NCBI GenBank assembly: GCA_903920145.1
Contig: CAIXKV010000216.1
Location: 1 to 64,000 of the forward strand
Length of the DNA: 64,000 nt
Direction: 5' to 3'
Source: an uncultured Rhodospirillales bacterium
GTDB taxonomy: Bacteria > Pseudomonadota > Alphaproteobacteria > Azospirillales > Azospirillaceae
Shown: in pieces, positions 1 to 59,858 of the stretch
Layout of the letters: the number at the start of each line of letters is the position of its first letter
Numbering within the stretch: the first letter of the stretch is position 1
Notes under the pieces: generated by a model
The model's input: only the letters and a program-made list of their open reading frames with translations
Told to the model about the DNA's origin: nothing
The model's database searches: none
Made by a program: the position numbers and the translations under genes

Positions 1-140
1 CCTTGATGGTGACTCATCAAGGCTGCCCTCAGACGCCGGGCGGGCGCATCCGCGCCCTTGGCTTCGCGCGCATGGGCGCGCGGGGCCGCCGTCGCGGCCC
101 GATACCGGCGATGTGTCAGTATCAGGGCTCGCCGGTATCA
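1..140 (+). repeat. Dispersed multi-hairpin element, copy A
   Basis: This is one of five copies of a mosaic repeat in the window (others near 13119, 14253, 58913 and 59760). Read along the plus strand it is a row of inverted repeats: arms CCTTGATG/CATCAAGG (1-22), a GGGCG/CGCCC hairpin (about 37-57), a CGCGCGC/GCGCGCG hairpin (about 65-82), GGGCCGC/GCGGCCC (about 83-100) and GATACCGGCGA/TCGCCGGTATC (101-139). The window may cut its left end. The third hairpin has arms wholly different from copies C and D yet still pairs. The final TCA (138-140) read on the minus strand is the stop codon of hpnE. Confidence 0.85.
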
Positions 141-1448
141 GCCCATTGCGTCGAATCTTGGGGCCCTGACGCGTGGATCGGCCGTGGTTGCGGCTGCGAA
201 TCCTGACCGAATCGCCCCTTCTATGGTTGCAGGCAAGCCGGTCGCGGTCCAATCGCCAGCCAAGAACAGATTGGGCCAGCGCGTCGCGGCTTTAAGCCGT
301 CGGCGCTGGTTGGCCGGTGTTTGAACAAATGTTGCACGTTTTTCCTTGATGATCCGCGCCGGTGGAACGGGGGTTGTTGGTAAAGCCAGGACACGGGCAA
401 CATCGGCCCATAACAGGGTGGCCACATCCTCCGCCGACTGCTCGGCCAGGGCCCCAGCCCCGCTGACCGTAACCGACGCCACATCACCGCGCACAAAAAT
501 CCAATGGGACGGCGCCCCGATCACACCAATAAAAGGCGCGTTCTCGGGGAGAGTTGGGGAATGCTCTAAACGAAAATGGGCGTTGACAATGGCGTGACCG
601 TCCTCGGGTACGGGCAGATCGGGTAGCAGATCGCCGACGGCAGAGGCGGGCAGGGCCAAGATCACCCTATCCTCGGGTTCTACGGGCAGAACGGCACCGC
701 CAAAATCCAAGGCCGCCACCCGTCCGCCATCAAACAGCACGCGACGCAGCCGCCGACCGAAGGCCGGTCGGACCTGGTGCTGGGCAAGATACGCCAGAGC
801 CGGGTCAATCAAGCTGGGGCCAAGGCCATCGCGGGGAATCAAGGGACGGCAAAAAGTCGCACCTCGGGCGAAGGTTCTCAAAAGCACCGCACGCAAGGGC
901 GCGGCTGCCGCCACTGCTGGTTCAGCATTCAGAGCTGCCAGTGTCAGCGGTTCCCAAAAGCTACGGTAGAGTGGGTGAGTGTCGGGAATGCAGTCGGCCA
1001 CCGTGGCATTGGGGCCTGCGGTGAGCACCGCAAAGCCGGACTTCAGATAGTCGACGAATCGGGAGTTGGGGATGCGCCGTGATGCCGCCAAGAGCCACCA
1101 GGGCAAAAGGCCCTGGTTGGGCCGCAGCACCCAGCTCTGTCCCGAGTCCAGGTCGATAAAGGGGAAAACCGCCGCCGACGGCCCGCTCACGGTGTCGGCA
1201 GCGCCAACGCGGTTCAAATAGGCCAGAGTGGCACAATTGGCACTGAGCAACAGGTGGTTGCCGTTATCGATCTGTCGCCCCAAACTTTGGTCAAAAAACG
1301 AACGGCAACGACCGCCCGCATTGGGGGCAGCTTCGTAAAGGGCAATCTTCCGATCATGACCGGCCAGCGTCACGGCACAAGCCAAGCCAGCCAGACCAGC
1401 ACCGACGATGTGAGTCGTCGTGCCATTGTTAGGGTTGGCCGATATCAT
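138..1448 (-). CDS. hpnE: Hydroxysqualene dehydroxylase HpnE (squalene-associated FAD-dependent desaturase)
   Basis: HpnE is the FAD enzyme that reduces hydroxysqualene to squalene for hopanoid synthesis. The 436-residue product opens with a Rossmann FAD-binding motif (VGAGLAGLACAVTLA, about residues 15-29), followed by a GGRC turn, and ends with the amine-oxidase-type FAD motif (FLAGDWTATGLPATIEGAIRSG region). The start at 1448 is chosen because its ATG overlaps the hpnD stop as ATGA; an upstream in-frame ATG at 1484 would lie inside hpnD. The gene is last in hpnBCDE. Its TGA stop is the first three bases of the reverse-read dispersed repeat (copy A), so the C-terminal tail after the conserved motif was probably set by insertion of that element. 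Confidence 0.93.
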   Translation of the reverse strand: MISANPNNGTTTHIVGAGLAGLACAVTLAGHDRKIALYEAAPNAGGRCRSFFDQSLGRQIDNGNHLLLSANCATLAYLNRVGAADTVSGPSAAVFPFIDLDSGQSWVLRPNQGLLPWWLLAASRRIPNSRFVDYLKSGFAVLTAGPNATVADCIPDTHPLYRSFWEPLTLAALNAEPAVAAAAPLRAVLLRTFARGATFCRPLIPRDGLGPSLIDPALAYLAQHQVRPAFGRRLRRVLFDGGRVAALDFGGAVLPVEPEDRVILALPASAVGDLLPDLPVPEDGHAIVNAHFRLEHSPTLPENAPFIGVIGAPSHWIFVRGDVASVTVSGAGALAEQSAEDVATLLWADVARVLALPTTPVPPARIIKEKRATFVQTPANQRRRLKAATRWPNLFLAGDWTATGLPATIEGAIRSGFAAATTADPRVRAPRFDAMG

Positions 1449-2302
1449 AGGGATCTCAGCAGCCCTCGAGAGAAGGCTGCCCACAGCTTGGCGCCTTTAG
1501 ACAGGGGCGGTGGGGGCTGGTCGGGATTCCAGCCATATCGCTCCAGGTGATCTAGAATGGCCTGATAGATCGCCATCATCAAGAGCGCCGGTCTGAGTCG
1601 ACGGCGGTTGCAGTGACGGAGGGCCGCATTGGCTTCGCCGTAGAATCCGCGCGCCCGCGCCGTCAGCTCACGAAAAACGGCGGGAAGGGCAGGATGGCGC
1701 AGCACGGCGGCTGGAGCGAGTGTTGGGTCGATGCCGTGGCGCTCCAGGGTCTCACGGGGCAGATACAACCGATCCCGTTCGGCATCTTCGGCCAGATCGC
1801 GCAGGATATTGGTCAACTGGAGAGCATCACCAAGGGTCAAAGCAAAGGTTCTGGCTTCGGCTTCGGTTGCGCCAAATACGGGCAGGGACAACAGGCCAAC
1901 CGTTCCGGCAACCCGCCGGCAGTAAAGCGACAGCATGGTCGCAGTCGGAGCCCGCATGGTTTCGCGAGCATCCATCTCCATCCCGTCAATCAAGGCCAAA
2001 AACTCTTCCCGAGGCAGACCGAAGCGCCGAATCGGTTCTAAAAGCGCCAGGGTGGTCGGACGTGTTGGTTGGTGATCGTAAAGGCGATGAACTTCTTCGC
2101 GCCAACGCTCCAACTCGGCCAAGCGAACTTCGGTTGGGCCGCCGTCGTCGGCCACGTCATCCACCTCTCGACAAAAGGCATAGATCGCATACATGGCCTG
2201 TCGCCGCTCGGATGGCAGGATTCGCATGCCTAGGGAAAAGGATGAGCCCGAGCGTGTCACCACCTCCTGGACATGCTCTTGGGCCGCAGTCAGGGCGCTC
2301 AT
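1445..2302 (-). CDS. hpnD: Presqualene diphosphate synthase HpnD
   Basis: HpnD condenses two farnesyl diphosphates to presqualene diphosphate, the first committed step to bacterial squalene. The 285-residue protein has both Asp-rich motifs of the squalene/phytoene synthase family: REVDDVADD at residues 45-53 and GDALQLTNILRDLAED at 158-173. Its ATG overlaps the hpnC stop (ATGA, 2299-2302) and its stop overlaps the hpnE start (ATGA, 1445-1448), so the three are almost certainly translated in a coupled way. Confidence 0.95.
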   Translation of the reverse strand: MSALTAAQEHVQEVVTRSGSSFSLGMRILPSERRQAMYAIYAFCREVDDVADDGGPTEVRLAELERWREEVHRLYDHQPTRPTTLALLEPIRRFGLPREEFLALIDGMEMDARETMRAPTATMLSLYCRRVAGTVGLLSLPVFGATEAEARTFALTLGDALQLTNILRDLAEDAERDRLYLPRETLERHGIDPTLAPAAVLRHPALPAVFRELTARARGFYGEANAALRHCNRRRLRPALLMMAIYQAILDHLERYGWNPDQPPPPLSKGAKLWAAFSRGLLRSL

Positions 2303-3189
2303 GGTGTCGCCGCCCGACCGACAGTGGTCGCGGTGTGAAGACGACCGCCAGCGGTCAAGCCATGAAATATCCCGGTGATGCCGCAGCGGGCAAAGTCCAG
2401 ACGCGACAGCTTAACCCGACCAGCGATGGGGTCGCTGCGCCGAAGCCGGTGAGTCAGTCGTCGGGCCAAGTGCAAAATAACCGCCGACTCCATGGCCAAA
2501 GAGCGATCCCGCAAGCGGGCCGGCAGAGTTGCCGCCGTCGCCAACAGCTCCTCGGTGCCGGTCAGGCACATATCAATCACCGCCCGCACCGCGCTGTTGG
2601 CCTTGCTGGCTTGAAGGTCTTCCACCCGACCCGCCTGGGCTGTCAACCAATCCAGCGGCAGATAAACCCGGTCCATATCCCGGTGATCGGCTTGGCAATC
2701 CTGAAGATGATTCAAAATTTGCAATGCGTTACACAGCGCGTCGGAAGCTGGGTAGCCCTCTTGGCTTTCGCCGTGAAGGTCCAACAGAAAGCGCCCGACC
2801 GGCGATGCTGAAAGAGTGCAGTAATCAATCAGCTCGTCCCAATTGGCATAGCGGGTCTTGACCGCATCCTGCCTGAACGCCGCCAGCAGATCTAGACCGT
2901 GGCGAGCGGTCACGCCCGTTTCGGCCAGACAAGCTCGCAGAGCCAGGGCCTTGCCATACAGGCGAGGGTGGCCGGTGCCAACGGACAAAGCCTCGGCGAA
3001 GCCGTCCAGGCGGGCGATCTTGTCTTCGGAGGTCAGCCGGGGATTGTCGGCGATGTCATCCGCAGCACGCGCAAAGGCGTAAAACGCGGCGACATGAGGC
3101 CGCAGAGACCGGGGCAGCAGCCAGGATCCAACCGGAAAGTTCTCGTCCTTCGCGGTTTTTCCCGATGGTGTTTCGACCGTTGCCGTCAC
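2299..3189 (-). CDS. hpnC: Hydroxysqualene synthase HpnC
   Basis: HpnC converts presqualene diphosphate to hydroxysqualene. From the GTG at 3189 the product is 296 residues. It keeps the first Asp-rich motif (RAADDIADNP, 41-50), while the second is the divergent form LQILNHLQDCQADH (156-169), which distinguishes HpnC from HpnD. The GTG start is chosen because GTGA at 3186-3189 overlaps the hpnB stop; an in-frame ATG at 3279 would lie 90 bases inside hpnB and would precede the conserved N-terminus (ENFPVGSWLLP). Confidence 0.93.
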   Translation of the reverse strand: MTATVETPSGKTAKDENFPVGSWLLPRSLRPHVAAFYAFARAADDIADNPRLTSEDKIARLDGFAEALSVGTGHPRLYGKALALRACLAETGVTARHGLDLLAAFRQDAVKTRYANWDELIDYCTLSASPVGRFLLDLHGESQEGYPASDALCNALQILNHLQDCQADHRDMDRVYLPLDWLTAQAGRVEDLQASKANSAVRAVIDMCLTGTEELLATAATLPARLRDRSLAMESAVILHLARRLTHRLRRSDPIAGRVKLSRLDFARCGITGIFHGLTAGGRLHTATTVGRAATP

Positions 3190-4412
3190 TCGATCGGTCT
3201 CCCTGCAAGAGTTTCGGCGGTTCCATCCAGATTGGTCTGGGTGACGCGCCCTTTCCACTGTCCGCCGCGACCGCGCCAATGACGCACTGCCGAAGCGATG
3301 GTCATCAAGCTATACAGAAATCCGACCACGGGCAGCAACCACGCAGCCATCCTTGGCTTGCGATAGAGCCGCAACGTCGGCTGATACGCAACCACCATCA
3401 GAAACCAAGCTGCGATCCCAAACAGCGCGGCCAAATCGGCCTGATGGAACGACCAAGTGAGAACCACAATCGGCGCCGTCAGATAGGTCAAAATCATGCC
3501 AAGAATGGCCCCGGCCAACAGCCAGGGAGAATGGTTAAGCTGGGTATAGGCGCTGCGGATTACCATGTCCCAGATTTCGCGGAAGCGGCTATAAGGACGC
3601 AGGCTCACCGCGCGCGTGCTGAGACCCAACCAGAGTCGCCCCGGTTGTCCATTGACTCCGGCCTTGATCACGGCACCGAGAGTGCAATCATCGATCAGGG
3701 CGCCACGAATGCGGGCAATCCCGCCCACGGCATCAAGAGCTTCTCGGCGAACCAGAATGCAGCCCCCAGCGGCAGCGGCTTCCGGGCGGGTGGAGCTGTT
3801 CACCCAGCGGAACGGGTAAAGCTTTTGGAAGAAGAAGACAAAGGCCGGGATCAGCAACCCGGCCCATAGGCCCCGGTGATTCAGCAGAACCATCAGTGAG
3901 ACGAGGTCGAGCCGTTGGGCTTCGGCCTTGGCCACCAACCGGCGCAGATTGCCGGGATCGTGTCCGATGTCGGCATCGGTTAGCCAGACATAACGGGCGT
4001 CTGGGTCTTGGGCGGCGGCTTGCTGGAGCCCTTCGGACACGGCCCACAATTTACCAGACCAACCGGCAGGCAGCGGGCGAGCCGAGATGACGGTCAGGCG
4101 ATCATCGGTTTCAGCCAATGCCAACGCAATGGCGCGGGTCGCATCCCGGCTGGCGTCGTCCACCAGGATCACGCGGAAACGACCGGGATAGTCTTGGGCC
4201 AAAAGAGTCGACAGGCTGGTCCCGATCACACCATCCTCATCTCGGGCGGGAACCACCGCCACCACCGACGGCCACGCGGCCGGGTCCGGGTCCGGGGGCG
4301 TGCCGATGACGGGAAGGCGTTGGTCACAGAGCCAGAACCGGCCCCGGAACAAAAACAGATAAAGCCATACCAAAAGCGCAAGTCCGCTTGCGACCGTAAG
4401 AGCCAAAGACAT
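3186..4412 (-). CDS. hpnB: Hopanoid-associated glycosyltransferase HpnB
   Basis: This is a membrane-bound family 2 glycosyltransferase of 408 residues. An N-terminal membrane segment (about 3-23) precedes the GT-A catalytic domain with VDDASRD (84-90) and the nucleotide-sugar/metal motif TDADI (145-149), then an LIDDCTLG motif and C-terminal membrane helices (about 295-375). HpnB is the hopanoid-cluster glycosyltransferase; its acceptor is not settled, but its conserved linkage to hpnCDE points to hopanoid or envelope modification. It begins 14 bases after a small membrane-protein gene and ends in a GTGA overlap with hpnC. Confidence 0.92.
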   Translation of the reverse strand: MSLALTVASGLALLVWLYLFLFRGRFWLCDQRLPVIGTPPDPDPAAWPSVVAVVPARDEDGVIGTSLSTLLAQDYPGRFRVILVDDASRDATRAIALALAETDDRLTVISARPLPAGWSGKLWAVSEGLQQAAAQDPDARYVWLTDADIGHDPGNLRRLVAKAEAQRLDLVSLMVLLNHRGLWAGLLIPAFVFFFQKLYPFRWVNSSTRPEAAAAGGCILVRREALDAVGGIARIRGALIDDCTLGAVIKAGVNGQPGRLWLGLSTRAVSLRPYSRFREIWDMVIRSAYTQLNHSPWLLAGAILGMILTYLTAPIVVLTWSFHQADLAALFGIAAWFLMVVAYQPTLRLYRKPRMAAWLLPVVGFLYSLMTIASAVRHWRGRGGQWKGRVTQTNLDGTAETLAGRPIE

Positions 4413-4426
4413 GATCAGGAACAGCC

Positions 4427-4777
4427 TCAGTTGGCGGGGGCGGACAGAGAGAAGATGTTTTTGTTCTGGCGGTCATGAAGAGACGTTAACAGGAAATCAC
4501 CGACCACCATCGAAACGCCGCCGATCAAGAATCCGACCGAGCAGCCCGTAGAAATATAAGGGACAGCAGCAATCACCGAGACTCCTGACAGAGTCATGAG
4601 GCCTGTGATCGCGCCAAAAGTCGCCCCGATCAAGCAGCCGCCGACGAAATACTTATCCATTTCATAATGATATTGGATCTCTTGAATCTGATCGTCGGTG
4701 AGCTGGCGGGTTTGGGCCGTCGCCGGACCAACCACAACGGCCAGCATCAGAAATGCCAGAAATACCAATCGAATCAC
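4427..4777 (-). CDS. Small exported or membrane protein upstream of hpnB, unknown function
   Basis: The GTG at 4777 gives a 116-residue protein beginning with a signal peptide or anchor (VIRLVFLAFLMLAVVV) that ends near ATAQ. The mature part has a short amphipathic LTDDQIQEIQ stretch and then a long Gly/Val-rich hydrophobic region suggesting two tight membrane helices. GAGAGG lies just upstream of the GTG. A longer reading from 4879 has an N-terminus that looks like intergenic DNA. The plan resembles the small protein at 24034-24387 (signal peptide, L-S/T-x-x-x-I motif, Gly-rich hydrophobic core), so they may be distant paralogues. Its 14-base distance to hpnB suggests one transcript. I do not recognise the family. 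Confidence 0.6.
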   Translation of the reverse strand: MIRLVFLAFLMLAVVVGPATAQTRQLTDDQIQEIQYHYEMDKYFVGGCLIGATFGAITGLMTLSGVSVIAAVPYISTGCSVGFLIGGVSMVVGDFLLTSLHDRQNKNIFSLSAPAN

Positions 4778-5122
4778 GCCTCTCTCACCAAAGACTCCTG
4801 GCCTTTGCTGAGGCCGGGGGCATGCTTCGGTGGAGATCCAGGGGCAAAGCCCCCACAGCGGCTTATGGGTCATGCACAAAGCCCAGTAGCGCGGAGCTCG
4901 GCAGGGCGCAGGGCTCGGCGGAAATCATTCTCGCCGCAGAGGTACCACGACGACGGTGACCATCCTACCATATCCGATCCGTTGACACGATTGCCTTGCA
5001 TGCGCCGTGATCGGGTGCGGACAGTTTGGCTGCGAACCGAACAAGGAGGCTTCCCAAGGCCGGTCGCCTGCGTCATGGTGTGCCCTGAGGGGAACGGGTC
5101 GATGTTCGACGCGGGGGGATAG
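4778..5122. other. Divergent intergenic region with a GGGGC hairpin
   Basis: This 345-base gap lies between the minus-strand hopanoid operon and the plus-strand exonuclease gene and must hold both promoters. The clearest structure is a short hairpin GGGGC-aaa-GCCCC at 4841-4854. Open frames across it have no recognisable protein features. I cannot place promoter boxes with confidence. Confidence 0.4.
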
Positions 5123-5728
5123 ATGGCGGCGTTGGTCTCGATGCTGGCGAGCCTGTCGGGGCCGGTGGTGGTGCTTGACCTGGAATTCACCGCTTGGGAA
5201 GGATCGCACGCCACCGGCTGGACTCGGCCCGGAGAGTTTCGGGAGATCGTCCAGATGGGTGCGGTTAAGTTGGCCTCCGATTTCAGCGAGGCGGCTTCGT
5301 TCAATCGCTTGGTCCGTCCAGCCCGAAATCCGCTGTTAAGCGATTATTTCATCGCCCTGACAGGGATTACCCAACACCGCCTGGACGCCGAGGGGGATGC
5401 CTATCTGCGGGTCTTGGAAGCCTTCATGACGTTTGTCGGTGACGATTCCGTTGCGATCTGGAGCAATGGCAGCGACGGTGCGGTGATAGCTGAAAATTGC
5501 CAGATGATGGGAAGCTCCTGTCCCATTCCGACCAGCCGATTCGTCAATCTGCGTCGACCGTTGGCCGAGGCTCTGGGCGTTGATCTTGCCGCAGCGGACA
5601 GTGGGCGCCTACTGGAATTGATCGGACTCCCGGTGGCCAATCAGCGCCAGCATGATGCCCTGGATGATGCACGAGCTGTGGCGGCAACGGTGCGCCATGT
5701 GTTTGTGCAATCCAGCCCGTCGCCATAA
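5123..5728 (+). CDS. DEDDh-family 3'-5' exonuclease
   Basis: The 201-residue product has the exonuclease (RNase T/DnaQ) signature: the metal-binding DLEFT motif (residues 19-23) and, near the C-terminus, HDALDDA with the catalytic His and Asp of the DEDDh subgroup. The inserted segment after DLEFT (GSHATGWTRPGEFREIVQMGAVKL region) is like Eri1/KapD-type RNA exonucleases rather than the DNA polymerase III epsilon subunit. The ATG follows a G-rich ribosome site (GGGGGG, 5116-5121 region). The in-vivo substrate cannot be told from sequence. Confidence 0.82.
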   Translation: MAALVSMLASLSGPVVVLDLEFTAWEGSHATGWTRPGEFREIVQMGAVKLASDFSEAASFNRLVRPARNPLLSDYFIALTGITQHRLDAEGDAYLRVLEAFMTFVGDDSVAIWSNGSDGAVIAENCQMMGSSCPIPTSRFVNLRRPLAEALGVDLAAADSGRLLELIGLPVANQRQHDALDDARAVAATVRHVFVQSSPSP

Positions 5729-5753
5729 GCATAAGAGCCCAGGAACAGACAGT

Positions 5754-6758
5754 ATGAGCGCGGAACAGGGGGAGACGGTTCGCGTGGTTGGGACTGAAAG
5801 GCGTCCGCGTCGGCGGTTTGGCCATGGTGCCGTGGAGCCGGTGGTGCTGGCGGTTCTGGTTTTGGCATTGGCCGCCTGCGCCGGGCCATCACAGCGAGGG
5901 CCGGCGACAGTGAGCGGTGGTTCGGGCGGCGGCTACAAAATTGGCAAACCCTATCAGGTGGGCGGCATCTGGTACTATCCGGCGGAGAACTATAGTTATG
6001 ATGAGACCGGGATTGCTTCGTGGTATGGTCCCGGCTTTCACAAAGAACGCACTGCCAACGGTGAAATCTTCGATCAAAATGAAATGTCGGCGGCTCATAA
6101 AACCTTACCAATGCCGTCCCTGGTTCGCGTCACCAATCTAGACAATGGCCGCTCTATCGTGGTCCGTGTCAATGATCGTGGCCCGTTTGTCAATGGTCGG
6201 ATTCTTGATATGTCTCGGCGCTGTGCTGAATTATTGGGATATGAGCGGGTTGGAACCGCCAAGGTTCGGGTTCAGATTTTGGCGGCGGAGAGTCGCGCTA
6301 TTGCGGCGGCGGCTCGAAACAAGTCTTCCACGGCGTATGCGGCGGCTGGTTATGGCGGGGGCGGAGCGTCGGTGGTAACCACGCCCATCGTGACCACTCC
6401 AGCGCCATCGGCAGCGATCACGGTCGAAACTCTGCCGCCCAAAACCACCGGCCCGGTCCTTTCCGGTAGCACCGTCGATGGCCGTTTCCTGCCGGCCCCC
6501 GAGGTGGCCCAGCACTCGGTGAGCGGTGCCCGGCGAATCTATGTTCAAGCCGGCGCCTTTTCCCAGTATAACCGCGCCAGCCTGCTGCGGGACAAAGTGG
6601 CAGCCATTGCGCCGGCGGCCATCAGTGAGACCCAGGTTGGTCAAACCAAGCTCTTTCGTGTGCGCCTAGGGCCCATCGAGTCGGTTTCGAGAGCCGACGA
6701 GATTTTGTCCCAGGTGGTTGGCGCCGGTACCACCGAAGCTCGGTTGGTGGTTGATTGA
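5754..6758 (+). CDS. rlpA: Septal ring lytic transglycosylase RlpA, SPOR-domain lipoprotein
   Basis: RlpA cleaves denuded peptidoglycan strands at the septum. From the ATG at 5754 (AGGAAC about 9 bases upstream) the product is 334 residues: a cytoplasmic head, a hydrophobic signal ending in a lipobox (LALAAC, Cys near residue 42), a double-psi beta-barrel RlpA domain (GIASWYGPGFHKERTANGE, through VRVNDRGPFVNGRILDMS), an Ala/Thr/Pro-rich linker and a C-terminal SPOR domain that binds glycan (IYVQAGAFSQYNRA to the end). The longer reading from 5652 overlaps the exonuclease gene and delays the signal peptide. It precedes dacA, another wall enzyme. Confidence 0.92.
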   Translation: MSAEQGETVRVVGTERRPRRRFGHGAVEPVVLAVLVLALAACAGPSQRGPATVSGGSGGGYKIGKPYQVGGIWYYPAENYSYDETGIASWYGPGFHKERTANGEIFDQNEMSAAHKTLPMPSLVRVTNLDNGRSIVVRVNDRGPFVNGRILDMSRRCAELLGYERVGTAKVRVQILAAESRAIAAAARNKSSTAYAAAGYGGGGASVVTTPIVTTPAPSAAITVETLPPKTTGPVLSGSTVDGRFLPAPEVAQHSVSGARRIYVQAGAFSQYNRASLLRDKVAAIAPAAISETQVGQTKLFRVRLGPIESVSRADEILSQVVGAGTTEARLVVD

Positions 6759-6814
6759 CGACACAAAAAGGCCCGTCGTAATGCGCAAGGCCCGTTGTAA
6801 AGGGATGATATAGT

Positions 6815-7978: not shown

Positions 7979-8048
7979 GGGGAGAGCACCATTTGTCTTG
8001 GCTTTCGCAGGGCTCTGCCTTGCGAAAGCCAAGAGGTACGGCCTCTCC
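7979..8048. terminator. Nested hairpin between dacA and tmk
   Basis: A perfect 14-base inverted repeat (TCTTGGCTTTCGCA at 7996-8009, its complement at 8021-8034) encloses an 11-base loop, and an outer GGAGAG/CTCTCC pair (7981-7986 and 8043-8048) closes the structure. No strong T-run follows, so it may be a transcript-stabilising hairpin, a weak terminator or an intergenic repeat rather than a classic intrinsic terminator. Confidence 0.6.
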
Positions 8049-8083
8049 TTATCTTTAAATATCATTGGGTTAGGCTCGCGGGT

Positions 8084-8728: not shown

Positions 8729-8731
8729 CCC

Positions 8732-9853: not shown

Positions 9854-9930
9854 TGGCACTGCGGAGGGGCGCAGCGGGGGCGAATCGTTTGCGTCCATTC
9901 GCTCGTGTTCATTCGTGAGGAAAATCCTTC

Positions 9931-11490: not shown

Positions 11491-11500
11491 GGACGCGCGC

Positions 11501-13080: not shown

Positions 13081-14224
13081 GTGGAAGCCGGCCAAAACGC
13101 CGGAACTCATACCATCGAGCCTTGATGGTGACTCATCAAGTCTGCCCTCAGACGCCGGGCGGGCGCATCCGCGCCCCCTAGAGTCCACATTGCGGCCCGA
13201 TACCGGCGATGTGTCAGTATCAGGGCTCGCCGGTATCATTCATGTCCGATGCGGCGATGACTGTCTTGAAACCCTGCGATTATCGGGCTTGCCGGGCACG
13301 ATTCTGCGCTGGATGGATCCGCTTTGCGAAGGTCCAACTCCGACGGATTTAGATGACGATGGCTTTCGTCGGATTCGAGCTGATTGGTTGGCCGAACGCT
13401 ATCACCTGAATAGTGACGCTCTGTTGGCAACCTTCCGGGAGCAAGACCAAGCGTTAGAACGTGCGGCAATCGACAGCCATGAGGTGCTGCTGTGGATTGA
13501 GCCGAACCTGTTTGACCAACTGATCCTGATTCGTTTGCTTGATCGCCTGTGGCCGTTGGCAGGTGGACGACTCTCTTTGATCAGTGTTGACCGTCGCCCT
13601 GGCGGTGGACGCTTGGTCGGTTTCGGTCAGTTGGGGCCGGCAGCACTAGCGGCGCTGTTTCCCAGTCGCCGCCGGGTAACGGCAACCCAAGCCGCAGTGG
13701 CCTCGCAAGCGTGGCGGGCTTTCACCGCCACAACGCCTGAGCCCCTGGAACGGTTGGTGATGACGAAAAAACTGGAGACGTTGCCGTTTCTCAAGGCCGC
13801 CCTGGATCGTCACCGCCGCCAATATCCTTGGCGACGTCATGGTTTGTCTCTGACCGAATGGCGAACCTTGGAGGCGGTGGCTGGTGGCGCCACAACATCG
13901 CGAGCGGTCTTCGCTTTTCTTCAAGCCCGTGAGCGGGCCCCCTGGCAAGGCTTGGCGATGATCGAGGCCGGATTGCGGGATCTGGCCAGCGGTTTCGCTC
14001 CGGCACTGACCCTGAACGCCGATACCCCGAACGAAAGGCCGTTGGCTCTGACCGAAACAGGCCAAGCGATTTTAGAAGGCCGCGAAACAGCGCCCCCAAG
14101 GGAACGCTGGCTTGGTGGGGTTCATCTCGATGCCCTGAATTCCGAGCCCGATCGGACCGTGTGGTATTGGGACGAGGGAAGCCGGAGTCTTGGTGTCCGT
14201 GCTGGCATCGGAATTTCTAGATAG
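13070..14224 (+). CDS. DUF1835-type protein with repeat-encoded N-terminal extension
   Basis: Residues 56 onward (IIHVRCGDDCLETLRLSGLPG, then DPLCEGPTP) match the start of DUF1835 proteins, whose function is not established. Residues about 17-55 are encoded by copy B of the dispersed multi-hairpin element, which stays open in this frame and fuses exactly at the domain start. The ATG at 13070 overlaps the upstream stop (13080); alternative starts inside the repeat are TTG at 13190 and GTG at 13211, so the extension may be wholly, partly or not translated. No ordinary start codon sits at the domain boundary itself. The gene ends 28 bases before repeat copy C. Confidence 0.8.
   Translation: MPAEWKPAKTPELIPSSLDGDSSSLPSDAGRAHPRPLESTLRPDTGDVSVSGLAGIIHVRCGDDCLETLRLSGLPGTILRWMDPLCEGPTPTDLDDDGFRRIRADWLAERYHLNSDALLATFREQDQALERAAIDSHEVLLWIEPNLFDQLILIRLLDRLWPLAGGRLSLISVDRRPGGGRLVGFGQLGPAALAALFPSRRRVTATQAAVASQAWRAFTATTPEPLERLVMTKKLETLPFLKAALDRHRRQYPWRRHGLSLTEWRTLEAVAGGATTSRAVFAFLQARERAPWQGLAMIEAGLRDLASGFAPALTLNADTPNERPLALTETGQAILEGRETAPPRERWLGGVHLDALNSEPDRTVWYWDEGSRSLGVRAGIGISR
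13119..13238 (+). repeat. Dispersed multi-hairpin element, copy B (within a CDS)
   Basis: This copy retains the first palindrome (GCCTTGATG/CATCAAG), the GGGCG/CGCCC hairpin and the perfect terminal GATACCGGCGA/TCGCCGGTATC hairpin, but lacks the third hairpin and half of the fourth. It lies inside the frame of the DUF1835 gene and contains no stop in that frame. The flank CATACCATCGA just upstream is shared with copy D, so the element may begin about 15 bases earlier. Confidence 0.88.
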
Positions 14225-14252
14225 TATTTTCCTGTCTCGTACAATCATCCGA

Positions 14253-14409
14253 GCCTTGATGTTGACTCATCAAGGCTACCCTTAGACGCCGGGCGGGCGC
14301 AGATGCGCCCCCCTAACGTCACACGGGAGCTTCGCGTCCACGAAGACGCAGGGCCGCACATCGCGGCCCGATACCGGCGATGTGTCAGTGTCAGGGCTCG
14401 CCGGTATCA
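14253..14409 (+). repeat. Dispersed multi-hairpin element, copy C
   Basis: A near full-length copy sits between the convergent DUF1835 and pentapeptide-repeat genes. All five inverted repeats are present: GCCTTGATG/CATCAAGGC, GGGCGCA/TGCGCCC, GCGTC/GACGC, GGGCCGC/GCGGCCC and GATACCGGCGA/TCGCCGGTATC. Relative to copy D, the second hairpin has gained an extra A-T pair and the fourth has a changed loop only, which keeps pairing intact. Position between gene ends suggests it could act as a bidirectional transcript end. Confidence 0.9.
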
Positions 14410-14415
14410 CTGAAA

Positions 14416-26093: not shown

Positions 26094-26105
26094 TTGGGAT
26101 ATCCT

Positions 26106-26149
26106 GATCGGGCGGCAGAAAACAACGGCGAACCCCACCCCGCCCGATC
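26106..26149 (-). promoter_or_regulatory. Probable riboswitch expression-platform hairpin
   Basis: A perfect 10-base inverted repeat (GATCGGGCGG at 26106-26115, complement at 26140-26149) sits between the riboswitch core and the GTG start at 26093. It could occlude the ribosome site or end transcription. The upstream arm adjoins the last riboswitch helix, so alternative pairing is possible. Confidence 0.6.
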
Positions 26150-26150
26150 G

Positions 26151-26280
26151 CGGAGAGGTCCAACCGTTGGTCTCGCCATGCCAAAAAAGGCCCCACGCGC
26201 CATGGCAATATATTTTTGCCAAGCCTGTTGACGCGCGGCCCGATCGTGATCGTCGGGCGGCTACTCCCCAAAGGACGTGG
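26151..26280 (-). ncRNA. yybP-ykoY manganese riboswitch
   Basis: On the minus strand the leader begins CCTTTGGGGAGTAGCC (GGGGAGUAG at 26269-26261), continues with a GTCAACA segment, and ends with GGCGAGACC and the facing GGACCTCTCC near 26177-26151. These are the two conserved loop segments of the yybP-ykoY class, which binds Mn2+ across two docked loops. It precedes a GDT1-family gene, a known partner of this riboswitch. Identification is by eye from the conserved segments. Confidence 0.88.
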
Positions 26281-47848: not shown

Positions 47849-47914
47849 GGTACGAAGGTAAAAAGTGTGCTTTTCCAATGGCGATGTAGCTTTATGAGAA
47901 TCAATCGGATTCTA

Positions 47915-48165: not shown

Positions 48166-48195
48166 AACGCAACTGAGATTCGGGAGAGCACATCG

Positions 48196-50905: not shown

Positions 50906-50959
50906 TCTTATTATATATCATCTTTTATCGTAATTGAACCTCAAACCACCGGCCAGTCA

Positions 50960-51811: not shown

Positions 51812-51841
51812 TATTGTGACTGAGCTTAAGATAGAGGTGGG

Positions 51842-52513: not shown

Positions 52514-53643
52514 CCGTTCTACCCAAAGCCAAATCACGAGTCCTAGTGGTTGATGATTCTGCATCTGTCCGTGAAGCTTTAAGAGATATTATTGATTCTG
52601 ACCCTGATTTGAGTGTGATGGGTACGGCTTGCGATCCCTATGCTGCTGCAAAACTGATCGCTATAGAAGTTCCTGATGTTATTGTGCTTGATATTCACAT
52701 GCCAAGAATGGATGGAATTACGTTTCTTCGAAAAATTATGATGCAACGACCTATTCCTGTTGTAATGTGTTCGTCCTTGACATTGGAAGGGAGCGAATCA
52801 CTGTTTGAGGCTTTGGAGGCCGGGGCCGTGGACGTCATCCCCAAACCCAAACTCGGCTCGCGCGACTTTTTAATGGATGCGCGGGTTTGGGTCTGTGACG
52901 CAATCAAAGCGGCGGCTCGATCCAAACCAAAACGCCAACCTGCGCCGAATCGGACGACAGCCAGTTCTGGGGATAAATCGCGATTGGGAACGGCCAAGCT
53001 GACCGCTGACGTCATCCTTCCACCGCCCCGGCAACGCAACGGCGCGGCAGCGTCTCATGTCACCGAAACAGTGGTATGTATTGGCGCCTCCACTGGTGGA
53101 ACGGAATCATTAAGAGTTTTGCTGGAAAGCGTTCCTGCCGATATGCCCGGAACCGTTATTGTGCAGCACATGCCCGAGAAATTCACGGAAGCGTTTGCCC
53201 GACGGCTAGATGGACTGTGCGCCGTAACGGTTCGAGAAGCCCGCAATGGGGATACCGTCATGCGGGGGCACATTCTGATCGCGCCCGGTAATCGGCATAC
53301 CTTGATCCGCAGGACAGGCTCTCGCTATTTCGTTGAAATCAAGGATGGGCCTTTGGTTTGCCGCCATCGGCCCTCCGTGGATGTGTTGTTCCGGTCGGCG
53401 GCCCAATATGCCGGAGCCAATGGTATTGGTATCTTAATGACAGGGATGGGGGATGATGGTGCACGAGGGCTATTGGAAATGATGCAGGCAGGAGCGCATA
53501 CTGTAGCCGAAGATGAATCCACATGCGTGGTCTTCGGTATGCCTCAGGAGGCCATAAAACGCGGAGCGGCATGCGCTATTTTGCCCCTCGATCGGCTACG
53601 GGATGAAATTTTACGTGTACGAGCCGCGCGGGAAGGTGCCTGA
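52510..53643 (+). CDS. cheB: Chemotaxis methylesterase/deamidase CheB
   Basis: The 377-residue response regulator has a receiver domain (VVDDSAS, phospho-acceptor Asp61 in [10 protein letters not shown]), a linker (about 125-185) and the methylesterase domain with the catalytic triad Ser194 (GASTGG), His220 (QHMP) and an Asp in GMGDDG (about 313-317). It reverses CheR methylation. Start overlaps the CZB gene by ATGA; stop overlaps cheD by TGATG. Confidence 0.96.
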
Positions 53644-54314
53644 TGTATCTACACCGTCCATCTCGGCCCCGCTTATCACCCACTCGAACCTTACTTCCGG
53701 GAGATATTTATTGTGACCGTTCCCCTCAATGCTTTGGGACAGTCTTGGGCTCTTGCGTATCAGTGTGCTTATGGGATTCGCAACTGAGATTTGGGGGGAT
53801 GAACCACTTTATCCTGCCCAATCGACCTGCGGAGGGGGAAGCCTCGCCTCGGTTTGGCGATGTCGCCATTCCACAATTGGTTAATGCTATGGTTGGCCTT
53901 GGCAGCAACATTCGTCATCTCCGAGCCAAAATTTTTGGTGGCGGTTATGTCCTTCGTGCGGGCGATCCAGCCTTATCTACAGGGCGGCGCAATGTCGCGG
54001 TTGCGGTTTCCGAATTGCGACGTCTGAGAATTCCCATCGTCGCCAGTCGCTTGTCAGGAACTCAGGGTCTCGTCATTCGTCAATGTACCGATTGCGGCGA
54101 CGTCTGGGTCCGACCCACCGGGGTAATTGACCGGAAGCTGGAGCCAGCAACCAATGTCGAGGATCTGTCTTGTTTTGCGGAAGACGTCACCATCCCCATG
54201 ACAGCCGATGGGGAAGACAGCGTCCCCTTGGCCATCCACACCCGATCTCCAGCAGGAGCGGCTAGATGGTGCGAAACCTGCACATCATCGCCGCTCGGAT
54301 GGCGACGGGCGTAG
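53643..54314 (+). CDS. cheD: Chemoreceptor glutamine deamidase CheD
   Basis: The 223-residue protein has the CheD catalytic Cys38 (LGSCVSVCLWD) and His55 (GGMNHFILP), and GGGYVL. It deamidates receptor glutamines. The C-terminal about 60 residues extend beyond the usual domain and look unstructured, with a CxxC-like QCTDCGD segment. It ends the che run; cheA and cheY are not in the window, so the signalling core must be elsewhere. Confidence 0.9.
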   Translation: MYLHRPSRPRLSPTRTLLPGDIYCDRSPQCFGTVLGSCVSVCLWDSQLRFGGMNHFILPNRPAEGEASPRFGDVAIPQLVNAMVGLGSNIRHLRAKIFGGGYVLRAGDPALSTGRRNVAVAVSELRRLRIPIVASRLSGTQGLVIRQCTDCGDVWVRPTGVIDRKLEPATNVEDLSCFAEDVTIPMTADGEDSVPLAIHTRSPAGAARWCETCTSSPLGWRRA

Positions 54315-54358
54315 CGAAGCTGCGGACGCAGAGGCGCCCGCTCTCCAGGGCGAATTTC

Positions 54359-55702
54359 TTACGCCACCAAGCCGTTCAAGCGTGCCTCAGCCCGAGTCCG
54401 CCCGATTAACGGCAGAAGGCTCTTCAATTCCGGCCCATGATCGGCTCCGGTCAGCGCCAAGCGCAACGGCATGAAAAGCGCCTTGCCCTTTACGCCGGTC
54501 TCGGCCTTGATTCGCTCGACCCACACCCCCCAGGTGGTTTCATCCCAAGGTTCAAGTGGCAGCACACGCGCTGCCCATTGAGTGAAGGGCAGGTTGGTGA
54601 TGGTTGGAGTCAAGAGGGCGTGACTGACCTGCCACCACGAAACGGCATCAGCGAGTCGGGTCAGATTGGGCCGTACCGCTAGCCAGAATCGCTCGTCGAC
54701 TCCCTCAAGCCCTAACGCGACCAGCCGGTCGGCCACTGCGGCAAAAGACGCAAGATGCAGCAGGCGAGCGTTTAGGCGAACCAGCTCCTCGGGATCAAAT
54801 CGCGGCGTAGCACGGGAAACTTGCTCCAAACCAAAGCTCTCAACCAACGCCTCCAAGGTCGCACAGGGTTCGATGGCGTTGGAGGTTCCGAGGCGGGACA
54901 GCAAACTGAGCAACGCCATGGGCTCAATCCCATCCTCGTCGCGCAAGGATGCGATGCTTAAACTGCCAAGACGCTTGGAAAGTCCCTGACCCGAAGCGTC
55001 GGTCAAGAGTGGCAAATGGGCGAAAGTAGGCACAGGTCCACCCAATGCCTGCCAAAGCTGAATTTGGACGGCGGTATTGGCCACATGATCTTCGCCACGG
55101 ATCACATGAGTAATCCCGAAATCAATATCGTCCACCACAGACGAAAGCGTGTACAGTGGCCTGTTATCTTCGCGGATCAGGACAGGATCGGACAGGTCGG
55201 CACCCTCGAAATGAACGTGGCCACGCACCAGATCGAACCAGTTAACGCCCTGGTGATCCAGTTTAAAGCGCCAGTGCGGTCGCCGCCCTTCGGCTTCCCA
55301 CCGGACCCGTTCGGCCTCCGACAGCTTCAGCCCGGCCCGATCGTAGAGAGGAGGTAGGCCTCGGGCCAGCAGGCTCTTGCGTTTCAGCCCAAGTTCCTCG
55401 GCGGTCTCATAGCAGGGATATAGGCGCCCGCTTGCCTTCAGCCGATCGGCGGCTTCGGTATACAACGCAAGCCGGTCAGACTGCCGAACCTGACGATCCC
55501 ATGTCAGCCCAAGCCAGGTCAAATCCCGCTCGATGCCGGCGGCAAAAGCCGCCGTCGAGCGTTCCTCGTCAGTGTCATCGAGTCGCAACAAAACGGTTCC
55601 ACCAACTCGGCGGGCGACGAGCCAGTTGACCAGTGCCAACCGGATATTGCCGACATGAAGCAAGCCGGTCGGGCTGGGCGCGAAACGGACGGTAAGGGAC
55701 AT
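54359..55702 (-). CDS. gltX: Glutamyl-tRNA synthetase
   Basis: The 447-residue class I synthetase has the HIGH-type motif ([14 protein letters not shown], about 7-20), the LDDTDEERS segment, [11 protein letters not shown] and the KMSKS equivalent GLSKRLGS. The shorter length and sequence resemble the second alphaproteobacterial GltX, which may charge tRNA-Gln preferentially or exclusively. The ATG at 55702 immediately precedes the conserved [12 protein letters not shown]; a longer frame to 55744 adds no conserved residues. It converges on cheD with a 44-base gap. Confidence 0.93.
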
Positions 55703-55767
55703 GATGCAGCGTCTCGAAACAAAAAAAGCGACGGGGAGAACCAAGAGGCTTCAGACACCCCCCAGGA

Positions 55768-56199
55768 TCAGGGTGGGCAAACCGTCCGACCATATTGGTC
55801 GCGGTAGCATTGGATCGGCTGTTGATAGACTGGCGGCGGCGGCGCAGGGACATAAACCGGCGGGGGCGCATAAACTGGGGGCTGTACATAAACTGGGGGC
55901 GGGGGCGGATATCCACCGGCCAATCCATGTTCCCGAAGGCATGCTAATTCATCTTGGCCACGACTCCTGCACAGTTCGCGAATACTCCGTTCAGCATGCC
56001 GAGGATCTTCGCGCTCGATGCACCGATCCATACATTCCTTGTAATTTTTGCCAGGACTGGAACAATATTCATTACAGCGGGTGTCCGCTGCGGCTTCCTT
56101 GGGCAACCCTGCCCAACCGGCGATAGCCAAGACCAGCGCCAAGGCCGCCAGCACAACGCGCGAAGGCAAGACTGGCTTTAACGTGCGTCGGTTGATCAT
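55768..56199 (-). CDS. Small exported Cys-x3-Cys and Pro-rich protein
   Basis: The 143-residue protein has a signal peptide (about 12-37), then a helical segment with paired CxxxC motifs (CNEYC and CMDRC, plus later LCRSRGQDELAC), and a C-terminal third rich in PPPVY/PPVYV repeats ending RTVCPP. The twin CxxxC pattern recalls CHCH-type helical hairpins. GGAGA lies 7 bases before the ATG at 56199. Function unknown; a periplasmic or surface role is likely. Confidence 0.7.
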   Translation of the reverse strand: MINRRTLKPVLPSRVVLAALALVLAIAGWAGLPKEAAADTRCNEYCSSPGKNYKECMDRCIEREDPRHAERSIRELCRSRGQDELACLREHGLAGGYPPPPPVYVQPPVYAPPPVYVPAPPPPVYQQPIQCYRDQYGRTVCPP

Positions 56200-56459
56200 G
56201 ATGAGTCTCCGGATTTGGCCCCCTGACGATAGGGGCAAGGATGTTATCTAAGGGTTCGAGAGGGCCAGCAACAGGCTATTCCATGGGGATCGTCGACCCA
56301 AGACGAAAAATCGATGATCACTGGGCGGATTGGCGTCTATGCGGTATCATAGCGCGATCCTCATGGCCAAGGGACCGTTCGTCGATCGACGGGACAAATG
56401 CCAAATGACAATAAAAACAGACGATGTACATAACAAAATGAAAAGGAAGGAAGCGCACC

Positions 56460-58097
56460 ATGACTAATATCATTGACAATCCCTATGAAGTTAATCTTGA
56501 TCGCACGGCTGCAAATCACGTTCCGCTTTCTCCACTTTCTTTTATTCGTCGGACTGCCGCCGTCTACCCCCATCGAATCGCCGTTATCCATGGTTCAATC
56601 CAGCGTGATTGGGCCGAAACCTACCGTCGGTGTGTTCGCTTGGCCTCGGCTTTGGCGGGCCGAGGAATCGGTGTGGGCGATACGGTGGCGGTGATGGCGC
56701 CTAACCTGCCCGAATTGTTCGAGGCTCATTTCGGGATCCCCATGGTAGGGGCGGTGTTGAATGCTCTGAATGTTCGTCTCGATTCGGAAGCCTTGGCCTT
56801 CATCCTGGAACACAGCGATACCAAGGTGCTGATCACCGACCGCGAATTTTCGGCGGTGATCAGGCCGGCCCTAGCCAAACTCAATCGGCCCATTTTGGTC
56901 ATTGACATCGACGACCCAACCGCCAAAGGAGGGGAGTGTCTTGGTGAACTGACTTATGAAGCCTTCCTAGAAGAAGGAGACCCTAATTTTGCCTGGACCT
57001 TGCCAGACGATGAATGGCGGGCCATCTCTCTGAATTACACTTCAGGAACAACCGGCAATCCTAAGGGAGTTGTTTATCATCACCGGGGCGCTTACCTGAA
57101 TGCCATGGGGAATATCGTGGCCTGGGCGATGCCTCATCATCCTGTGTATTTGTGGACTCTGCCAATGTTCCACTGCAATGGATGGTGTTTTCCTTGGACA
57201 GTGACGGCCATGGCCGGAACCCATGTTTGCCTGCGCGGTATTTCAGCCAAAGCAATCTTTGATGCCATAGCCGACCACGGTGTCACCCATTTGTGCGGGG
57301 CGCCGATCATCATGGGGCTGCTAGTCAACGCCCCGCCGGGGGCCCGTCGCCCGATTCCCTCAGGCATTCGGATGATGACCGCTGGGGCCGCCCCACCGGC
57401 TAGCGTGCTCGAGAAAATGGAACGCCTGGGCTTCGACATCCTTCACACTTATGGTCTAACCGAAGTCTACGGGCCGGTGACGGTGTGCGCTTGGCATGAC
57501 AGTTGGGACGAGCTGCCGACGGAACAACGGGCGATGTTCAAGGCTCGGCAGGGCGTCAATAGCCAAGTGCTCGAAGGCTTAATGGTCGCCGACTCTCAAA
57601 CGATGGAGCCGGTGCCCGCCGACGGCGTCACCATCGGAGAGGTGTTTATGCGGGGCAACGTGGTGATGCGGGGCTACCTCAAAAACCCCCGAGCCACCGC
57701 AGAAGCGTTCGAAGGCGGCTGGTTCCACAGCGGCGATCTGGCGGTGATGCACGAGAACGGCTATATTGAAATCAAGGATCGTTCCAAAGACATCATCATC
57801 TCAGGCGGCGAGAATATTTCCACCATCGAGGTGGAGTCGGTGCTCTATCGCCATCCTGCGGTGCTGGAAGCCGCCGTGGTGGCGCGGCCAGACGAGACGT
57901 GGGGCGAGACGCCTTGTGCCTTCGTAACAGTCAAGCCGGGGGAAACGGTCAGTCAAGCCGACCTCGTTGCTTTTTGTCGACAGAACCTTGCCCATTTCAA
58001 ATGCCCGCGCCATATCGTGTTCACAGAACTGCCGAAAACCTCCACCGGCAAGATTCAGAAATTCGTTTTGCGTCAAAAGGTTAGGGATATGGCTTAA
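56460..58097 (+). CDS. AMP-binding acyl-CoA synthetase
   Basis: The 545-residue enzyme has the adenylate-forming signatures: SLNYTSGTTGNPKGVVYHHRG (about 180-200), TYGLTEVYGP, GWFHSGDLAV, DRSKDIIISGGENIS and the C-terminal catalytic Lys in TSTGKIQKF. It is most like medium-chain or methylthiopropionate-type acyl-CoA ligases (DmdB-like), but acyl specificity cannot be read. AAGGAAGG lies about 8 bases before the ATG. A MarR regulator follows. Confidence 0.92.
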   Translation: MTNIIDNPYEVNLDRTAANHVPLSPLSFIRRTAAVYPHRIAVIHGSIQRDWAETYRRCVRLASALAGRGIGVGDTVAVMAPNLPELFEAHFGIPMVGAVLNALNVRLDSEALAFILEHSDTKVLITDREFSAVIRPALAKLNRPILVIDIDDPTAKGGECLGELTYEAFLEEGDPNFAWTLPDDEWRAISLNYTSGTTGNPKGVVYHHRGAYLNAMGNIVAWAMPHHPVYLWTLPMFHCNGWCFPWTVTAMAGTHVCLRGISAKAIFDAIADHGVTHLCGAPIIMGLLVNAPPGARRPIPSGIRMMTAGAAPPASVLEKMERLGFDILHTYGLTEVYGPVTVCAWHDSWDELPTEQRAMFKARQGVNSQVLEGLMVADSQTMEPVPADGVTIGEVFMRGNVVMRGYLKNPRATAEAFEGGWFHSGDLAVMHENGYIEIKDRSKDIIISGGENISTIEVESVLYRHPAVLEAAVVARPDETWGETPCAFVTVKPGETVSQADLVAFCRQNLAHFKCPRHIVFTELPKTSTGKIQKFVLRQKVRDMA

Positions 58098-58298
58098 GGA
58101 CTTTGGTCCGTTGCGCCCACTCTTCCGGGCAAAGGGGGGGGGCGTGATGGGGGCCGTCGATGATGTTTTCGGCGGCACCCCGGAGGTCCGTCTTTATGAA
58201 CCCATTGACGGCGCAACCGAAAAAGAGGCAACACTACCGTGTGGAGCCGCACCGTCGCCAGGCAGAACAATCGATCAGAGGTTAAACGAGACACCACC

Positions 58299-58787
58299 AT
58301 GCAAGTGCAAATTTCGACGGTGGGAATTGCCGCTCTGATCGAGCGGGCGTCACGGTTAATACATTCCATCGGCTATGCCGAGGGGCTGTATCCGGCGCAA
58401 TGGACCGCGCTCCGTTTCTTTTCGGAAGCGCCGCCCTCTTCCCGAACCACGGCTGGCCTCGCCCGGTTCCAAGGCATGAGCCTCGGGCCGGTGGCACGCA
58501 CAGTGCGGACTCTGGTCGAGAAGGGATTGCTGGCCCGAGCCGCCAATCCATCAAGTCGACGAGCTGATTTGATCGCGGTAACGGCGGCAGGCCAGCTTCT
58601 GCTGAAACGGGATCCTCGGGCCGCAGTGGCGGGAGCTATCGAGACCATGCCTCCCGAACATCGGGAGGCTTTGGCTATGGCCATGGAGACCTTATTGCAT
58701 GGCCTGCTGGCCATTCAGCGATTTCCGGACCCAGATCATGGCCTGGAGGCCGGCAGGCCGGCAGAGGCCGAAGTTGAGTCTCACTAG
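58299..58787 (+). CDS. MarR-family transcriptional regulator
   Basis: The 162-residue protein has a winged-helix MarR core: LYPAQWTALRFFSEA, TTAGLARFQGMSLGPVARTVRTLVEKGLLARAANPSSRRADLIAVTAAGQ, i.e. recognition helix and wing. The ATG at 58299 is chosen over an upstream GTG. It lies about 200 bases after the acyl-CoA synthetase gene and may respond to an aromatic or acyl ligand linked to it. Confidence 0.87.
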   Translation: MQVQISTVGIAALIERASRLIHSIGYAEGLYPAQWTALRFFSEAPPSSRTTAGLARFQGMSLGPVARTVRTLVEKGLLARAANPSSRRADLIAVTAAGQLLLKRDPRAAVAGAIETMPPEHREALAMAMETLLHGLLAIQRFPDPDHGLEAGRPAEAEVESH

Positions 58788-58834
58788 GAGAAGGGCCTTG
58801 CCTCCCTGAGTACTCAGCGCAAGCCTTTCTGAGG

Positions 58835-58862
58835 GCGTAGGCTTCTTGCCTACGCTCTCTTT
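58835..58862 (+). terminator. Intrinsic terminator after the MarR gene
   Basis: Arms GCGTAGGC (58835-58842) and GCCTACGC (58848-58855) with a TTCTT loop are followed by TCTCTTTATT, a T-rich tract. It lies 48 bases after the stop. Confidence 0.85.
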
Positions 58863-58912
58863 ATTAAGGGGACAAGGGGCCCCGTGTGGTTCACGACCTC
58901 TCATACCCTCGA

Positions 58913-59070
58913 GCCTTGATGTTGACTCATCAAGGCTGCCCTCAGACGCCGGGCGGGCGCATCCGCGCCCCCTAGAGTCCACACACTGGGGCTTCGCGTC
59001 CACGAGGACGCGGGGCCGCCGTCGCGGCCCGATACCAGCGATGTGTCAGTGTCAGGGCTCGCCGGTATCA
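58913..59070 (+). repeat. Dispersed multi-hairpin element, copy D
   Basis: A full-length copy with five inverted repeats lies between the MarR gene and the convergent glycosyltransferase. Third hairpin arms are GCGTCC/GGACGC and fourth are GGGCCGC/GCGGCCC. One base of the last stem is changed (GATACCAGCGA against TCGCCGGTATC), giving a single mismatch. Its last 19 bases, read on the minus strand, encode the final residues Asp-Thr-Gly-Glu-Pro and the stop of the glycosyltransferase. Confidence 0.92.
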
Positions 59071-59858
59071 TAAAGCCGCAGGATTCGCTCGATAGGAACC
59101 CCTAGCCCGTAGAGCGCCAGGCACGTCAGATTACGCAGACTTCGGCGGAGGTAACCCGTTCGACGGAATCGCTCGGCAGACGTCATGGCTTTGCCGTCCA
59201 GCGCGACCAACCGAGCACGCCCCAGCCGGCGAATCAGGTCGACATCCTCCATCAGGGGCAAAGGTCGGAACCCGCCGATCGCATGATAAAGAGTTCGGGA
59301 CAGCAGCAAACCCTGGTCGCCGTAGGGCAGGGCCAACCACCGACACCGCCAGCGAACCCAACGCTCCAGGCGCCGGGCGGCAGGGGCTTCGTCATCAAGG
59401 GCGAAGAGAAAATAGCCCGCGCGGATTTCACTGTTGGGGTTACGGGGCGCGTTAGCCAGAAAAGCCCGAATCGTCCGAATCGCCTGATCATCCAGGCGGG
59501 TATCCGCGTGAACGAATAGGAAGAAACGGCCCGTAGCGGCTTCAGCCCCGGCGGCGAGCTGGGGCCCGCGCCCACGCGGCGCAGCGATGACTCGCGCACC
59601 ACCAGCTTGAGCTATCGCTGCGGTGCCATCGCCGGAACCGCCATCCGTCACCACCAACTCGACATTTTCTCCCAACCCAGCCAGGGCCGCTAATGTCACC
59701 GGCAAAACCGCAGCCGCGTTGAGCGTTGGAATAATCACCGACAGCGTGGGGCTTGAGAGTGATACCGGCGAGCCCTGACCATGACACCTCGTCGGTATCA
59801 GGTCGCACTCGCTCGGTGTCTGAAGAGAGCCTTGATGGAAGGTGCCCCTGCTCTGCAT
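59052..59858 (-). CDS. Family 2 glycosyltransferase (TIGR04283 type) with repeat-derived termini
   Basis: The conserved domain runs from SVIIPTLNAA (about residue 40) through VVTDGGSGDGT and the FVHADTRLD metal motif, a family of small cytosolic GT-A enzymes, to PIERILRLY. Both ends come from the dispersed element: residues about 8-33 are read from copy E, and the last five residues (DTGEP) and stop from copy D. The ATG at 59858 overlaps the upstream stop as TGATG; no ordinary start lies between the repeat and the domain except a GTG at the Val of SVIIP, which would truncate the first strand. It ends the lpxK-lpxL-unknown-unknown run. Confidence 0.85.
   Translation of the reverse strand: MQSRGTFHQGSLQTPSECDLIPTRCHGQGSPVSLSSPTLSVIIPTLNAAAVLPVTLAALAGLGENVELVVTDGGSGDGTAAIAQAGGARVIAAPRGRGPQLAAGAEAATGRFFLFVHADTRLDDQAIRTIRAFLANAPRNPNSEIRAGYFLFALDDEAPAARRLERWVRWRCRWLALPYGDQGLLLSRTLYHAIGGFRPLPLMEDVDLIRRLGRARLVALDGKAMTSAERFRRTGYLRRSLRNLTCLALYGLGVPIERILRLYDTGEP
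59760..59837 (-). repeat. Dispersed multi-hairpin element, copy E (short, diverged, within a CDS)
   Basis: On the minus strand this reads from CATCAAGGCT through a shortened, changed middle (TTCAGACACCGAGCGAG) to GATACCGACGA and TCGCCGGTATCA. The left arm of the first hairpin and the third and fourth hairpins are missing. The last hairpin survives with one mismatch. It lies inside the N-terminal coding part of the glycosyltransferase gene in the same direction as that gene. Confidence 0.8.

Follow-up and report, generated by a model that had tools for sequence, protein, structure and literature searches.

The repeat families nearest to the one described here in the open-access literature are the CGTC and GTAG REPs (PMC3733652) and Br-REP1 and Br-REP2 of Bradyrhizobium (PMC5082802). 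The CGTC-tagged REPs of Alphaproteobacteria are single stems of 8-9 bp that almost always begin with A-T pairs, with a CGTC tag and a tail of the CCA type; a mover is likewise not known for these repeats of the same class (PMC3733652). Br-REP1 and Br-REP2 comprise three adjacent stem-loops located in 3' UTRs between convergent genes, with the consensus CCGGAATCTCGAGATTCCGG (PMC5082802).

The window analysed in this study is the first 64 kb (64,000 nucleotides) of contig 216, counted from base 1, in a genome of 269 contigs and 4.26 Mb. An initial annotation of this window reported five copies of a mosaic of hairpins in a fixed order and proposed a search of the full genome with the consensus. 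That search reveals a large family, with hairpin 1 (H1, up to three mismatches) matching 572 times in the 4.26 Mb genome and not at all in the reversed control. The five window copies are thus members of a mobile repeat present in hundreds of copies. Merged elements and fragments number 332 and make up 2.4% of the 1.62 Mb of sequence examined, a sample biased towards contigs already known to carry the repeat. A repeat hairpin lies within 250 bp of 63 of the 118 contig ends checked, compared with 3.6% of random stretches. Full copies share a median pairwise identity of approximately 90%.

Table 1. Repeat copies and hairpins (H1 to H5) in the window, with positions numbered from its first base.
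Feature	Positions	Strand	Composition	Remarks
Copy A	1..140	+	H1, H2, H3 (CGCGCGC form), H4, H5	left end truncated by contig end
Copy B	13110..13235	+	H1, H2, H5; lacks H3 and the H4 left arm	
Copy C	14240..14406	+	H1 to H5, with a degenerate left end; TCA follows at 14407-14409	convergent ORFs on either side
Copy D	58904..59067	+	complete unit, H1-H5 (CGCGTCC form)	convergent ORFs on either side
H1 of copy D	58914..58935	+	CCTTGATG/CATCAAGG	
H2 of copy D	58955..58970	+	GGGCGC-ATCC-GCGCCC	most conserved hairpin of the family
H3 of copy D	58995..59012	+	CGCGTCC-ACGA-GGACGCG	
H4 of copy D	59013..59030	+	GGGCCGC-CGTC-GCGGCCC	
H5 of copy D	59031..59067	+	terminal hairpin, contains right inverted end	
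Copy E	59763..59797	-	H5-only unit, inverse orientation	TGA and TCA flanks
H1-like scrap adjoining copy E	59828..59864	+	AGCCTTGATG ... CATCAAAG	by eye

The common order of hairpins is retained in copies A to D (Table 1), but the fifth copy, E, is an inverted fragment beside an H1-like scrap. Copy B lacks H3 and the left arm of H4, in agreement with the initial annotation. Although all five copies had been located correctly, their true ends lie further out, at TACC/GGTA termini bordered by a T-N-A duplication. For example, TCA is found on each side of copy B (13107-13109 and 13236-13238) and of copy D (58901-58903 and 59068-59070). Copy B ends only a few bases upstream of a possible ATG, and might therefore form part of the 5' leader of the next ORF.

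The structure of the full unit was read from an alignment of 64 full copies with their flanks. It spans approximately 150-170 bp and carries five hairpins inside imperfect 12-bp inverted ends, TACC[A/C]TCG[A/G]GCC ... GGCTCGCCGGTA. From the left, T-N-A and the inverted end are followed by H1, the joint CCCTCAGACGCCGGGC, H2, a spacer that is either short (TTGGCTT) or long, H3 in one of two forms, H4, and H5, which terminates in GCTCGCCGGTA before the second T-N-A. Truncated and shorter forms also occur in the genome. The small size of the unit suggests that it lacks coding capacity. DNA folding of both strands yields hairpins far stronger than those in shuffled sequences (z = -4.5 and -5.2). 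No T-run of an intrinsic terminator directly follows the last hairpin in the aligned copies of this genome, which by eye run on as GGTATNA.

The left and right T-N-A triplets are identical in 38 of 49 copies, where 19.4 are expected (p < 5e-5). A separate extraction from a larger sample, which overlaps the first, gives 38 of 55 bounded units with 17.3 expected, and the highest of 5000 shuffles reaches 29. The triplets differ in approximately 30% of bounded units, which could reflect decay, recombination between copies or ends that were wrongly paired. In addition, some units are nested. At locus L080, one unit splits another between CTGCCCTCA and TCAGACGCCGGGCG, and the joint of the host is re-formed once a single TCA is dropped. 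At L052, a unit resides within the H1 loop of another and is flanked by a TAA duplication. The inverted ends, the T-N-A duplication and the nested copies indicate mobility of the MITE type.

The initial annotation also interpreted differences among the five copies as compensatory changes. The difference between copies A and D in the third hairpin is real and both versions pair, but they represent two genome-wide forms, CGCGTCC-ACGA-GGACGCG and CGCGCGC-ATGG-GCGCGCG, that differ as a block. Their paired differences always co-occur (85 and 68 copies in scans from the two sides), which indicates two subfamilies rather than compensatory evolution. Similarly, the A-T pair said to be gained in the second hairpin of copy C is actually a change of the loop from ATCC to AGAT, and such a pair would leave a loop of only two bases. 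With G-T counted as unpaired, stem mutations within this genome amount to 113 unpaired versus 4 compensated cells in H4, and 50 versus 5 in H1. Resident copies carry G-T and A-C mismatches in about equal numbers overall. Because most stem mutations break pairs and G-T is about as common as A-C, there is no sign here of current RNA-strand selection or of fast copying from arm to arm.

A 160-base query and a core pattern reached further genera of this family, Niveispirillum being one. In this genome the pattern CTCAGACGCCGGGCG-N(8-30)-TTGGCTT has 386 matches; none of the other 81 genomes of the family exceeds 18, four congeners have 0-3, and the reversed control has none. Between genera, the three core hairpins covary strongly while the joints CTCAGACGCCGGGCG...CTTGGCTT are nearly invariant, a conservation that in the pattern-derived list results partly from how matches were selected, because the core pattern fixes the joints. 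A model search that does not require exact joints nevertheless recovers them in most matches. Across 28 different H2 sequences, pairing holds in 97.0% of pair cells versus 65.5% after shuffling, with covariation scores of 0.676 and 0.159. For H2-H4 in 11 cores, the corresponding values are 99.1% versus 78.6% and 0.440 versus 0.100 (0 of 500 shuffles), and no one-sided standard changes were seen. These sets were picked for a common layout, which favours both the paired percentages and the scores; alignment A2 was left out because its joints are misaligned. The covariation test proposed in the initial annotation thus gives strong covarying pairs between genera in all three core hairpins. The suggestion that paired arms matter is supported by the very strong covariation between genera, but the compensatory change proposed from the five copies finds no support within this genome.

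TACC-type ends with T-N-A border 10 of 87 core copies in relatives, 6 of them with a matching duplication, versus 0 of 255 controls. These 10 copies come from other genera, and include members of three families other than that of the window (L126, L214 and L227). Given that ends are recognisable in only these 10 copies, and that the core of one further genus apparently has none, the core may also exist apart from the mobile unit. In that genus (g2; L115, L119, L121 and L140-L146), the core variant has a longer H3, a CATGAG-type terminal hairpin and no evident TACC ends, and several copies come immediately after stop codons or terminator-like sequences. In other genera (L155, L212, L285 and L147), the core forms tandem arrays with periods of roughly 85-115 bp.

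With covariance model R1, which received a short calibration, the core was detected in 35 of the 385 genomes of Alphaproteobacteria scanned, representing 29 genera. In a phylum-wide draw, 13 of 399 genomes match and all 13 belong to the same class, although the number of other-class genomes in this draw is not given. Copy numbers outside this genome are lower bounds, because at most 12 candidates were scored per genome. One or two of the weakest model loci are probably false, including the ribosomal-looking L231, which was judged from a fixed-offset stretch that misses its match. Sequences from about 25 families share the exact joints. An exact 30-base core is present in 83 stretches of a collection of 85,462 species, all in records titled as alphaproteobacterial; carriers include Erythrobacter, Alteraurantiacibacter, Roseomonas, Falsiroseomonas, Roseococcus, Rhodovarius, Acidiphilium, Niveispirillum, Aerophototrophica, Zavarzinia and Terasakiella, among others. 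The three-hairpin core, with stems that are rewritten yet still pair, spans many families of Alphaproteobacteria.

Copies are mostly located near the 3' ends of genes, often between convergent genes. With genes taken as simple long ORFs rather than curated calls, 51 of the 154 intergenic elements of this genome for which both neighbours are known lie between convergent ORFs, and convergent gaps account for 148 of the 777. Among 109 copies of relatives that could be classified, 56 sit between convergent and 10 between divergent ORFs, at a median of 41 nt past the upstream stop. In relatives, 51 copies fall inside long ORFs, many of which are probably spurious in such GC-rich DNA.

The T-N-A duplication implies a transposase of the DDE type. 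A T-N-A target duplication is also characteristic of the IS1031 group of the IS5 family, whose ends begin with GAG rather than the TACC of this repeat. Neither the 1.62 Mb of genome searched nor the surroundings of 30 atypical ends yielded a transposase gene bordered by the ends of the repeat. Several candidates for a parent IS were considered. Inverted pairs of ends spaced 700-2800 bp apart around an ORF proved to be ordinary copies flanking genes, and ends without an adjacent H1 or H5 turned out to be degenerate copies. Five PF01609 genes have no TACC ends around them, and neither DDE_Tnp_1 nor DUF4096 transposases have matching ends; a DUF4096-type transposase is itself absent from this genome, which has no PF13340 match. 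The mover may have been lost, may have collapsed in the assembly of this fragmented genome, or may have different ends. A 402-aa DDE_Tnp_1 frame lies inside 26-bp inverted repeats CACGGCTCGGAAGTCAGGTTAACGGT at L162:1066-2353, and together these probably constitute an intact IS.

A linked Y1 (TnpA-REP) transposase, which had been suggested as a candidate to look for, is contradicted by the data. The genome has two Y1 genes, neither flanked by the repeat, and no Y1 gene is present in 13 of the 15 relatives searched, most of which carry the repeat. At L032 (contig 169, ~9.9-10.7 kb), a 231-aa Y1-type frame adjoins runs of TGTCACCGTAACC, possibly its own repeat and unrelated to the hairpin array.

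We conclude that the repeat is likely a non-autonomous element of the MITE type, with TACC...GGTA ends, a T-N-A duplication and a DDE-type transposase presumably supplied in trans. The unit inserts at T-N-A and duplicates these three bases. Units would persist at gene 3' ends, where they would be least harmful or would provide transcript-end hairpins in both directions. Since resident copies decay unrepaired, whereas stems covary over long times, pairing would be maintained by selection on active source units and not by repair of residents; what is selected would be movement as DNA, or being tolerated or useful at transcript ends. A broader proposal, which we regard as rather improbable, is that this is an ancient alphaproteobacterial transposable system in which the hairpin array is needed for movement or upkeep, its stems being rewritten as units around fixed joints, and in which the enzyme is a T-N-A-specific one of an undescribed type.

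The most serious competing explanation, possible though doubtful, is that the core is transcribed into a structured RNA, forming 3'-UTR or antisense hairpins, and selected for its RNA fold, with transposition secondary. Nearly invariant joints around covarying stems fit such a role, as does an excess of G-T over A-C (82 versus 23) in H3 and H4 across both alignments of relatives. This excess, however, comes from alignments fitted to the model and partly from outer columns, and is therefore not trusted, while H2 exhibits no strand bias (G-T 5, A-C 8), resident copies have none either and Rfam offers no match. A missing bias does not itself preclude an RNA role, because many copies lie between convergent genes, where either strand could be under RNA selection. 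Pairing could instead be kept by hairpin-templated copying (quasi-palindrome correction) without selection, as the many G-C/C-G swaps and near lack of one-sided intermediates between genera would suggest. We consider this unlikely, given that mismatches in resident copies of H4 and H1 go unrepaired with few compensated, and that joints and loops are conserved as well.

Membership in a REP/BIME family, moved through single-stranded hairpins by a Y1 (RAYT) transposase, would account for the high copy number, palindromes, 3'-end positions and mosaic forms, and the genome does have two Y1 genes. It is nonetheless very improbable, because T-N-A duplication is not a product of Y1 transposition, the GTAG-type tag is missing, and, as described above, neither Y1 gene is flanked by the repeat and most relatives searched have none. 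Finally, matches outside the family might be chance hairpins caught by a permissive model, considering the GC-rich genomes and short calibration; the recurrence of exact joints in about 25 families, the empty reversed control and the restriction of all 13 phylum-wide matches to one class make this extremely unlikely.

Repeats that are conserved throughout a bacterial class, have covarying stems and lack a known RAYT are rare. A genome so rich in copies (several hundred), with low-copy congeners for comparison, provides a natural experiment in which the enzyme could be sought and the role of hairpin arrays at gene 3' ends tested. The G-T excess in relatives, although drawn from a model-fitted alignment, provides a lead for RNA function.

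The statement in the initial annotation that no named family has this sequence is borne out as far as Rfam and open-access searches reach. No Rfam family scores above threshold, and a relaxed E-value gives nothing credible. Elsewhere in the window, a manganese riboswitch (yybP-ykoY, RF00080) lies at 26101-26274 on the minus strand, with 64.3 bits, above the gathering score. Core strings do not appear in a relevant context in open-access paper texts, the only matches being in two unrelated papers, and no published family with the same sequence or layout was found in these texts, so that an earlier description elsewhere is possible. Like the CGTC REPs, the repeat is alphaproteobacterial, extragenic and high in copy number, with no dedicated transposase known. 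Unlike them, its stems start with G-C, it has several hairpins and it duplicates T-N-A; identity with these REPs was rejected on the tag, the A-T-first stem and the CCA-type tail given in their published description. It resembles REPs and REPINs with RAYTs in being palindromic, dispersed and arranged in mosaic arrays, but lacks the tag and has a duplication, and Y1 genes are absent from most relatives searched. Br-REP1 and Br-REP2 share the three adjacent stem-loops at convergent 3' ends but differ in sequence. Compared with bacterial MITEs (NEMIS/Correia, RUP, ERIC, Nezha and MITEAba12), the repeat has five consecutive hairpins rather than one long fold, T-N-A duplication with TACC ends, a class-wide core of three hairpins whose joints are conserved and whose stems covary, and no parent IS found here. 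It is like these MITEs in being short, in having inverted ends, a target duplication and no transposase gene of its own, and in combining hundreds of copies with strong hairpin folding.
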